Positions 10,051-33,980 of a stretch of DNA of 64,000 bases are shown piece after piece; the first letter of the stretch is position 1; every line of letters begins with the position of its first letter. This DNA comes from Nitrospira sp. (GTDB taxonomy: Bacteria > Nitrospirota > Nitrospiria > Nitrospirales > Nitrospiraceae). The position numbers were made by a program, and so were the translations under genes. Where the stretch lies: positions 186,001 to 250,000 of the forward strand of contig CP126122.1 in assembly GCA_030123565.1 (NCBI GenBank). Direction: 5' to 3'. The notes below the pieces were generated by a model that did not search any database, was not told the DNA's origin, and was given only the letters and a program-made list of their open reading frames with translations.

Positions 10051-10074
10051 GAAGCGATCACGAAGCCAGTAGAT

Positions 10075-10165
10075 CGGTCGCTTCCCTACGCTGGTATTAC
10101 CCAGGTCAGGTTGTGAGGGTCGTCCGACTTGCTCGGACTCTCAGCCTATTGGCCCCCCTAGCTGT
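10075..10165 (-). promoter_or_regulatory. TPP riboswitch (THI element) controlling thiC-thi4
   Basis: The minus strand carries the conserved thi-box pieces in order: ggctgagag, then cctgacctgggtaataccag, then cgtagggaagcg. These form the pyrimidine- and pyrophosphate-sensing arms of the TPP aptamer. It precedes a terminator hairpin and thiC, so high TPP should end transcription early. Confidence 0.95.
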
Positions 10166-10299
10166 TGGAGGTGATCGTACCGACCTGCCGACACGATGTC
10201 AATCTACTGGAAGGCCCAGGAGCGAAGGTTCTTCAGTGCCGGGTCGTTGAGGCGAAGGGCCTGGCCGGACGTGAGCCCTGTACGTGGATGACGCAATCC

Positions 10300-16383: not shown

Positions 16384-16704
16384 CTAGCAGGCTGCGAAAA
16401 AGCTCGATTGTTGCATAATACACCGCGATCAGCTCACGTGCCGTATCGGCGTCAGAATCGCCCGCAGGATGCGCAAAAAGGCCGTCCAGCAAGGCCGCAG
16501 CGAGGTCCGCGACGCGAAGCATAATGAGCGTCACGTGTGCGGACGCCGGCGAGACGGTGAGCCGGCAGTGTCTTGGAGGCGAATCATCACAGTCTTACCC
16601 GCCCACCCTGAGCCTGCCGGGACAGGCTCTGTGCCCATGGCCGTACGTTGAGCGTCTGAGCGATGCGAGAACGCCGCTGGCGGATTTTTTCCGTATCCTG
16701 CTAG
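16384..16704. repeat. MITE-like repeat element, copy 1 (CTAG-ended inverted termini)
   Basis: The 321-base element begins ctagcaggctgcgaaaaag and ends ttttttccgtatcctgctag, which are inverted copies of each other with a few changes. A 31-base block (16474-16504) is exactly inverted at 33410-33440 in copy 2, and 16660-16704 matches 33322-33366 inverted. The right-hand CTAG supplies the TAG stop of the gene at 16701. No gene lies within. Confidence 0.8.
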
Positions 16705-16982
16705 AGGATGCCCTGCTCGATTTCGTGCAGGTAAAGAAAGTCCGGCGTTTTCACACCGGTCGCTCTCCTGATTTCGACCAACTCCGGGGATTCGAAGAAG
16801 CGACGGGTTTCGTCCAGCGAGGACCAGGTTGAAAAGTGGACGATGCGGTTGGCATCGTTGTCGTATCGCAGGAGTTGGTAGCTGATTTCCCCGGCACGTT
16901 TTCTGAGACCCGCCGCTTGGTCGAAGACGGCTTTCCATGCGGGATAAGCTTCGACTTCGTGAATGATCAGCACGTGGGGCAT
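16701..16982 (-). CDS. Antibiotic-biosynthesis-monooxygenase-like (ABM) domain protein
   Basis: 93 residues, GGAG five bases before the ATG. The pattern MPHVLIIHEVEAYPAWKAVFDQAA...GEISYQLLRYDNDANRIVHFSTWSSLDETRRFFESPEL is a dimeric alpha/beta-barrel of the ABM-like group: strand, helix, two strands and a helix ending in SPEL. Such proteins bind small organic or heme-like ligands. The function cannot be fixed. Its stop codon is formed by the terminal CTAG of a repeat element. Confidence 0.75.
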   Translation of the reverse strand: MPHVLIIHEVEAYPAWKAVFDQAAGLRKRAGEISYQLLRYDNDANRIVHFSTWSSLDETRRFFESPELVEIRRATGVKTPDFLYLHEIEQGIL

Positions 16983-17325: not shown

Positions 17326-18639
17326 GGCTCTTCAGGAAACCGTGTGGGTAGTTAACGTCTCTTGCGCTATGCTCGGAGCCTCACAAGGAGGAGCCGAGCC
17401 ATGCGCGACTTTGAACTCTATCAGGCCGTCTTGGGGTTGCGGGCCCCCTGGACCGTCGTCAACGTGGAGCTGGATGTGAAGGGGAAACAGGTGACCGTGA
17501 CCGTAGAGGCCGGACCGGGGCCCTATCCCTGTCCTGAGTGTCAGGAGCCGGTCCCGGGCTATGATCGCAAGCGCCGACGGTGGCGGCATCTGGATACCTG
17601 CCAGTTCACGACGTGGATCCAGGCGGACCTCCCCCGCGTGAGCTGTCCGACCCATGGGGTTAAGCAGATCGCGGTGCCCTGGGCGGAGCCCGGCTGTCAG
17701 TTCACTGCCTGGTTCGAGCGCCTGGCCATTGATGTGCTCCGGGAGTGTTCGGTGACGGGGGCTGCGGGGCTGCTGCGCATCACGTGGGACGAGGCCTGGG
17801 GGATCAAGGCTCGGGCGGTCGCTCGGGGGCTGAGCCGCCGGACCCAGGACATCATGCCGCACCTCGGCGTCGATGAGAAAGCCATCGCCAAGCGGCACCG
17901 CTACCTCACGGTCGTTGCCGCCCTGGATCGCAGCCGCGTCCTCTACCTGGCGGAGGATCGCAAGCAGGAGAGTCTGGACGGATTCTGGACGATGCTGACG
18001 TCCGCTCAGCGCGAGGGGATTGAGGCGATCGCCATGGATATGTGGGAGCCCTCTGTGCAATCCACGCGGGCGCATGTGGAGGGCGCCGAGACCAAGATCG
18101 TCTTCGACAAGTTCCACGTCGTCAAGCATCTCCACGACGCGGTCGACCACGTCCGCCGCGCCGAGCACCGAGCGTTGAAGCAGGCTGACGACGCTCGTCT
18201 CACCGGCACGAAATATCTCTGGCTCATGCGCCCCAAGGAGATGACCCCCGAGCAGCGGACCACGTTCCGCACATTGCAGTGCTCGGACCTCAAGGTGGCA
18301 CGGGCCTGGACCCTCAAGGAGCGCTTCCGCCAGTTCTGGGACTACACGTACTGCGGCGCGGCCCAGAAGTTCTTCGCCCGCTGGTTCTGGCGCGCCACCC
18401 ATAGCCGCCTGGTCCCGATGGCCGAGGTGGCTAAACTGATCCAGCGCCACCTCCCCAACGTGCTCACCTATCTGCAGCATGGCATCACCAATGCGGGCCT
18501 GGAAGCCGTCAACGCGACGATCCAGTGGGTGAAGAAGACCGCCCGCGGCTTCCGGAACGTCGAGCATTTCAAGACTGCGATCTATTTCCACTGCGGAGGA
18601 CTGGATCTCTATCCAACCCACACGAAAGCCTGAAGAGCC
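17326..18639 (+). mobile_element. Intact ISL3-family insertion sequence
   Basis: 1314 bases bounded by inverted termini: left ggctcttcaggaaaccgtg, right (complement) ggctcttcaggctttcgtg, both continuing with tgggt. It holds a single transposase gene and is flanked by an exact 8-base direct repeat. All parts needed for movement appear present, so it is a recent or at least undamaged insertion. Confidence 0.93.
17401..18633 (+). CDS. ISL3-family transposase
   Basis: 410 residues from the ATG at 17401, which follows AAGGAGG by nine bases. An N-terminal zinc-binding region (CPECQEPVPGYDRKRRRWRHLD...VSCPTHG) precedes a helix-turn-helix and the DDE catalytic core: Asp158 in LGVDEKAIAK, Asp213 in AMDMWEPS and Glu368 in GLEAVNATIQ, all in the DDE_Tnp_ISL3 order. 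Length is normal and no frameshift is seen. The gene almost reaches the right terminus, ending six bases before the element ends. Confidence 0.95.
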   Translation: MRDFELYQAVLGLRAPWTVVNVELDVKGKQVTVTVEAGPGPYPCPECQEPVPGYDRKRRRWRHLDTCQFTTWIQADLPRVSCPTHGVKQIAVPWAEPGCQFTAWFERLAIDVLRECSVTGAAGLLRITWDEAWGIKARAVARGLSRRTQDIMPHLGVDEKAIAKRHRYLTVVAALDRSRVLYLAEDRKQESLDGFWTMLTSAQREGIEAIAMDMWEPSVQSTRAHVEGAETKIVFDKFHVVKHLHDAVDHVRRAEHRALKQADDARLTGTKYLWLMRPKEMTPEQRTTFRTLQCSDLKVARAWTLKERFRQFWDYTYCGAAQKFFARWFWRATHSRLVPMAEVAKLIQRHLPNVLTYLQHGITNAGLEAVNATIQWVKKTARGFRNVEHFKTAIYFHCGGLDLYPTHTKA

Positions 18640-33321: not shown

Positions 33322-33527
33322 CTAGCAAGATACTGAAAAAGTCCGCCAGTGGCGTTCTCGCGTCGCGCCGAGGCTCACCGTACGGCCCAGAGTACGATTC
33401 GCCCCATCGCTCGCTGCGGCCTTGCTGGACGGCCTTTTTGAGTATCCTGCGGAAACATTCGTTCGTGGCACCGGCTGTTCAGGGGGCGAATTAGGGGCAT
33501 CTAACAGTTTTTTCTGCATTCTGCTAG
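33322..33527. repeat. MITE-like repeat element, copy 2 (CTAG-ended inverted termini)
   Basis: Begins ctagcaagatactgaaaaag and ends ttttttctgcattctgctag: imperfect inverted termini. An internal end (tttttgagtatcctgc near 33435-33450) also resembles a terminus, giving a 129-base core plus a 77-base extension, as in copy 1, in the opposite orientation. The right CTAG supplies the stop codon of mraZ. Confidence 0.8.
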
Positions 33528-33964
33528 AGAAGATTGAGGATCTTGGCCATGTTTTGTTCGTACCGATCCTCGGTTTTTGAGATGTACCGCCGCCATTCCG
33601 CCGGATTCCAGATTTCCATGCGGTGATACAAGCCCACGAGAATGATTTCCTGGTCTTCGTCCATCGGCACGAGTTTACGAAGGCGTCCTGGAATCAACAC
33701 ACGCCCCGCTTTATCGATCTCCGAGGTTCCGGCTTCCGACACGACATAATGCATGAACAGGCGGCTCTGGTCCTCGTCCAACGTGGTTTTGGTCCGCTCC
33801 AACACCTTTTCCCATTCCTTGGCAGAGTACACCCAGAGAGACTGTTCGGCGTTTTTCAGGAACATCACCTGATTGCCTTCGGCCTCCAGATGTTCCCGGA
33901 GGGGAGAGGGAATCAAGAAGCGCCCCTTTTCATCGACTTTGCAGAGGTACTCTCCGGCGAACAT
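33524..33964 (-). CDS. mraZ: MraZ transcription regulator
   Basis: 146 residues from ATG at 33964 (MFAGEYLCKVDEKGRFLIPSPLREHLE); the ATG three codons earlier touches the GGAGG ribosome binding site and cannot be used, whereas this one is nine bases from it. Two AbrB-like swapped-hairpin DRxxR-type modules: GEYLCKVDEKGRFLIPSPL and DKAGRVLIPGRLRKL. MraZ usually heads the dcw cell-division cluster; here no mraW or ftsL follows, but an excisionase-like HTH precedes it. The stop TAG is part of a repeat element terminus. Confidence 0.93.
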   Translation of the reverse strand: MFAGEYLCKVDEKGRFLIPSPLREHLEAEGNQVMFLKNAEQSLWVYSAKEWEKVLERTKTTLDEDQSRLFMHYVVSEAGTSEIDKAGRVLIPGRLRKLVPMDEDQEIILVGLYHRMEIWNPAEWRRYISKTEDRYEQNMAKILNLL

Positions 33965-33980
33965 TATCGGCATCCTCCGG

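Follow-up and report, generated by a model that had tools for sequence, protein, structure and literature searches.

Two short repeats lie in the window analysed here (64,000 nucleotides, bases 186001-250000 of the single-contig, 4.62-Mb genome of a Nitrospira, a genus of key nitrifiers), and each of them abuts a minus-strand gene so closely that the stop codon of this gene falls within the CTAG at the edge of the repeat. An earlier note on this sequence had placed them at 16384-16704 (A) and 33322-33527 (B), where we find them, and had claimed that the CTAG of the repeat supplies the stop codon of its neighbour. The question raised by this locus is therefore whether the repeats made these stops or settled on them, and what kind of element ends up in such places.

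Table 1. Positions in the window of the two MITE copies, their parts and the genes that they abut.
Feature	Position	Strand	Remarks
MITE copy A, including both target-site duplications	16384..16704	-	321 bp, long form with M module; R end at right
CTAG, left target-site duplication of A	16384..16387	.	
77-bp extension of A, ending in the outer terminus CAGGCTGCGAAAAAG	16388..16464	-	
Inner repeat of A (CAGGATGCGCAAAAAGGCCGTCCAGCA)	16465..16491	-	R-end mirror, C for G at position 10
M module of A, 76 bp	16500..16575	+	27 matches in genome, occurs outside MITEs too
R-end terminal inverted repeat of A (CAGGATACGGAAAAAATCCGCCAGCG reading inwards)	16675..16700	-	
CTAG, right duplication of A	16701..16704	.	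16701-16703 is the TAG stop of the minus-strand ABM-like gene
ABM-domain protein gene, native stop = insertion target	16701..16982	-	Pfam PF03992
MITE copy B, including both target-site duplications	33322..33527	+	206 bp, short form
CTAG, left target-site duplication of B	33322..33325	.	
R-end terminal inverted repeat of B	33326..33351	+	
Inner repeat of B (reverse complement of CAGGATACTCAAAAAGGCCGTCCAGCA)	33423..33449	+	
74-bp extension of B, including the outer terminus	33450..33523	+	
CTAG, right duplication of B	33524..33527	.	33524-33526 is the TAG stop of minus-strand mraZ
mraZ, native CTAG stop = insertion target	33524..33973	-	Pfam PF02381

The two repeats are members of one abundant family (Table 1). 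At least 25 well-preserved copies and about 40 recognisable ones are present in the genome, BLAST with A as query gives 52 matches, and the terminal inverted repeat (TIR) pattern CTAGCANNNTNNNGAAAAA has 23 exact matches, against none for the reversed control pattern; this abundance is far beyond chance. The copies fall into length classes of about 206-210, 230, 272 and 310-322 bp, with a single copy of 71 bp, and none of them contains a transposase ORF. A 209-bp form used as query finds matches in 57 of 61 related genomes, many of them full-length, at 81-99% identity. Dispersed copies, together with sites that are empty in relatives, are what is expected of a MITE, and the MITE-like nature proposed in the earlier note is confirmed by the small size, the lack of a transposase gene, the TIRs shared with an insertion sequence (IS) and the fixed-length duplication described below; the genome search that it had suggested also shows that the family goes well beyond the two copies of the window. 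No Rfam family matches inside A or B. The window also holds a TPP riboswitch (10066-10169, minus strand, 71.8 bits). One relative (G013) has a dozen copies that share 93-99% identity with the 209-bp query (97-99% for most), and such near-identity suggests a recent burst of the MITE in that species.

Read from the R end, a MITE of this family consists of a TIR (CAGGATGNNGAAAAAGTCCGCCAGC), variable modules, an inner repeat, an extension of 74-78 bp and the outer TIR (CAGGCTGCGGAAAAAC), so that the two-part plan noticed earlier in A and B (a core with its own inner terminus, plus an extension) is a trait of the whole family. The inverted 31-base block that had been reported is also real, being the identical part of a 43-nt block at 95% identity; it is inverted because A and B lie, as whole elements, in opposite orientation, and we reject the reading of an inversion inside one of them. 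Mobile copies reduced to the core and bounded by the inner repeat were looked for among the copies examined in this genome, and none was convincing. The M module of the long form can form two hairpins and is a repeat in its own right: of its 27 genome matches (among them those at genome positions 316851, 661185, 698505, 2038655, 3137914, 4401135 and 4403672, and a tandem at 1048033-1048181) about ten lie outside MITEs; its stem bases co-vary between copies (GTCCGC..GCGGAC in some, GTGCGC..GCGCAC in others), as if the fold were kept.

CTAG had been described as the outermost part of the inverted terminus, and here the flanks tell otherwise. In a sample of 125 MITE copies from 20 genomes, the two flanking tetramers are identical in 92 copies (CTAG 63, TTAG 13, CTAA 11, others five) and differ by one base in another 28, and at independent sites with non-palindromic flanks they are repeated directly in 26 cases and inverted in one (P=4e-7). 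Since non-palindromic tetramers form direct repeats, and since the tetramer is single at empty sites, CTAG is not part of the TIR; it is a 4-bp target-site duplication lying outside it. One could still argue that CTAG, being palindromic and flanking half of the copies on both sides, belongs to the TIR of an extragenic palindrome of the REP/BIME type, a RAYT-associated kind that has no target duplication, but both the direct repeats and the single tetramer of empty sites speak against this idea, the clear 4-bp duplications are not those of a REP/BIME, and copies flanked by TTAG/TTAG or CTAA/CTAA refute it, so that we give it practically no credence. The preference for insertion at CTAG, also put forward in the note, is by contrast upheld as a property of the duplicated target (63 of the 92 identical flanks). 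Escherichia coli IS5 duplicates Py-T-A-Pu, most often CTAG (PMC5493358, Table 3), and the MITE flanks match this published target as well as that of MITEPsy1 (PMC3189936).

No transposase with these ends had been seen in the window, and this is correct: the only transposase gene there is an intact ISL3-family ORF of 423 aa (17362-18633, plus strand), near A and unrelated to A's ends. A search of the whole genome was nevertheless successful, since TIR-pattern matches 1325 bp apart led to two intact IS5-family ISs (1204458-1205782 and 3461646-3462970 of the genome), each spanning 1325 bp with its flanking CTAGs, whose ends are identical and in opposite orientation. Many MITEs carry exactly their TIR (CAGGCTGCGGAAAAA) at the extension end. 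The transposase (363 aa) is recognised by the model NF033581 (transpos_IS5_4) at 285 bits, for a cut-off of 140, and by Pfam DUF772 and DDE_Tnp_1; its score against IS1182 (203 bits) is below the cut-off of 270. Homologous ISs of other genomes, N. defluvii included, have ends of the same type and are flanked by TTAG/TTAG, CTAG/CTAG or ATAG/ATAG, that is, by 4-bp YTAR (or ATAG) duplications. Close homologues of the transposase occur in N. defluvii and other Nitrospira, and homologous ISs with ends of the same type and 4-bp YTAR or ATAG flanks are found in other phyla as well.

The MITEs and the IS of this genome thus have in common the terminal 15-17 bp and the flanking CTAG, but the IS is 1.3 kb long, codes for a transposase and has neither internal similarity to the MITE nor a visible inner mirror repeat. 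Their likeness ends some 20 bases in from the termini, so the present IS did not give rise to the MITE by deletion alone. We think that this IS, or relatives of it, probably supplies the transposase; in many MITE-rich relatives our search found no close homologue of this transposase, and there the MITE would have been mobilised by other ISs or by ISs since lost. A second IS5-like IS is present at 313044-314422 and 1053116-1054494 (genome coordinates), with the TIR CAGTGTGTTGACAAA, YTAR flanks and a transposase 43% identical to the first.

Whether the stops are older than the insertions can be read from the relatives. When the two flanks of B are joined, they align without interruption in all 26 relatives in which the site was located, none of which has an element at the mraZ stop, the tetramer at this stop being CTAG in 17, CTAT in six, CTAA in two and CTAC in one; likewise, a CTAG closes the ABM gene of many relatives that lack the element. 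CTAG stops in the absence of any element indicate that the stop is native and was then duplicated by the insertion, and the native CTAG stops of the ABM gene and of mraZ were therefore the targets. The observation of the earlier note stands, as the TAG stops do lie in the terminal CTAGs, but the causality that it assumed is reversed. In two relatives (G006 and G013) a MITE sits at the same CTAG of the ABM gene with its extension end adjoining the gene, opposite to the arrangement in the present genome, and belongs to another subtype, differing in its extension or in its set of modules; in a third (G028) the same holds as far as the contig reaches, this extension end being found close to the end of the contig. 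A MITE of another subtype in the opposite orientation implies that at least two insertions took place here. For annotators, this means that a stop codon at such a repeat can be native rather than the mark of a truncation.

To place the insertions relative to genes, we classed independent insertions on rebuilt empty sites and compared them with other CTAGs from random 20-kb stretches, which add up to 464 kb in this genome and 400 kb in others, with gene ends taken from a home-made coding-potential caller trained on these genomes and covering 78-82% of the sequence. A first background, made of CTAGs in MITE flanks, had given an odds ratio of 4.7 and was rejected because it was biased towards intergenic DNA. 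Only nine of 114 insertions are intragenic, compared with 124 of 327 other CTAGs (P=1e-10), and the median distance to the facing 3' end is 19 bp, as against 195 bp. Among non-coding sites, 40 of 105 insertions (38%) fall exactly on a stop codon, against 46 of 203 CTAGs (23%; OR 2.1, P=0.005), shares that are rough since the caller misses some small genes (the ABM gene of G013, for example). The difference is clear in this genome (12/19 versus 22/94, P=0.0016) and weak in the others (28/86 versus 24/109, P=0.11). The preference for gene ends suspected from two copies is thus supported; CTAG specificity and the loss of intragenic insertions account for much of it, and a modest excess at stop codons comes on top.

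We think it very probable that these MITEs are moved by a YTAR-cutting transposase of the IS5 family and are harmless when they land on native stops. The DDE transposase would recognise ends of the form CAGG(C/A)TGNNGAAAAA, including those of the non-autonomous MITEs, and would cut YTAR words, the rare CTAG being the best of them, with a stagger of four bases, which yields two copies of the tetramer. A YTAR word read on the opposite strand is again a YTAR, and either reading contains TAR, a stop codon; insertion into such a stop therefore restores it on either side of the element. A native CTAG stop would be rebuilt at whichever edge adjoins the gene, leaving the protein unchanged, and such harmless insertions would survive, those inside genes being lost. 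The target word of a transposon can thus make insertion at gene ends harmless.

In this scenario the excess at stops is probably due to selection. It might instead be due to targeting, if the transposase were guided to the 3' ends of genes by DNA structure, supercoiling or a terminating polymerase, and there are reasons to take this seriously: the excess at and near 3' ends is greater than CTAG frequency accounts for, one ABM stop was hit repeatedly, and E. coli IS5 chooses its sites by DNA structure as well as by sequence (PMC5493358). We nonetheless hold targeting to be the less likely cause, since the share of stops is greatest in the oldest third of the copies (54% versus 26-34%), as selective retention predicts, although the difference between the halves of the copies by age is not significant (P=0.16).

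A different explanation would have the elements kept for a function, as bidirectional transcription terminators or as 3'-end modules of the abutting genes, a role that the earlier note had also considered. The core, made up of the R end and the inner repeat, is predicted to fold as a long hairpin, TTTTT follows a stem arm on each strand, and, exact stops set aside, 16 of 60 insertions versus 12 of 141 CTAGs have a facing 3' end no more than 50 bp away (P=0.0014). A scan with a terminator consensus, whose pattern does not extend to long-loop stems, gives a single weak match, in A (16438-16424), and none in B, however; the regional total of terminator-like sequences (19) is not above that of shuffles (16.3), the elements show no orientation bias towards the gene (24 versus 17, P=0.35), fold z-scores are modest (-0.9 to -2.1), and the sites are empty in most relatives. 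A terminator role thus finds no support in the scan or in the orientation, and we judge it quite improbable, more so than targeting; the preferred explanation remains harmless insertion by an IS5-family transposase.

The inner repeat, a mirror of the R end, has the same subfamily bases as the R end at positions 8-9 in 115 of 124 copies, against at most 96 in shuffles; for the R end and the other outer end the count is 98, against at most 95. At position 10, all 24 copies of this genome have G in the R end but C in the inner repeat. As target duplications sit at the outer ends and not at the inner repeat, the latter is probably an inactive, paired end. Past their first 18 bases the extensions are almost unrelated (median identity 0.53, shuffled 0.47), and a nearly constant length despite unrelated sequence suggests a constraint on spacing. 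It is tempting to imagine a bipartite end, in which a putative transposase-binding but non-cleavable inner site, at a fixed spacing of about seven helical turns, would help to pair the ends or would let the MITEs outcompete their own IS; we offer this as a speculation, and a rather doubtful one.

A literature search found no description of a MITE of Nitrospira, and an abundant, genus-wide mobile repeat of these bacteria can now be named. Its class is already known from the target of E. coli IS5 and from MITEPsy1: it is an ordinary type of element, here an IS5-type MITE family of Nitrospira. What is new lies in the details, namely an inner repeat that mirrors one end but invariably has C in place of a G, and the extension of 74-78 bp, fixed in length and free in sequence; two points may be worth following up, that the element can land on a stop codon without harm and that its inner end is a mirror copy, probably inactive, set at a fixed spacing. 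Escherichia coli IS5 resembles the IS partner, with an IS5-family DDE transposase and a Py-T-A-Pu target in which CTAG is commonest (PMC5493358), but it is autonomous, unlike the MITE, and is likened to it by family and target, not by sequence. QMITE2 of Coxiella burnetii, according to a review, is also a MITE found mainly in 3' untranslated regions, but has duplications of 7-9 bp and other termini (PMC10969869). MITEPsy1 of Pseudomonas syringae pv. phaseolicola, captured while transposing, is an IS5-related MITE (probably from ISPsy2) whose TIR contains CTGAAAAAGCC and which lacks coding capacity and inserts with a 4-nt duplication of CTAG or YTAA; it differs in its size (100 bp), its few copies and its genus, and is described, in those parts of the paper that we draw upon, without an inner repeat, a fixed-length extension or an excess at stop codons (PMC3189936).
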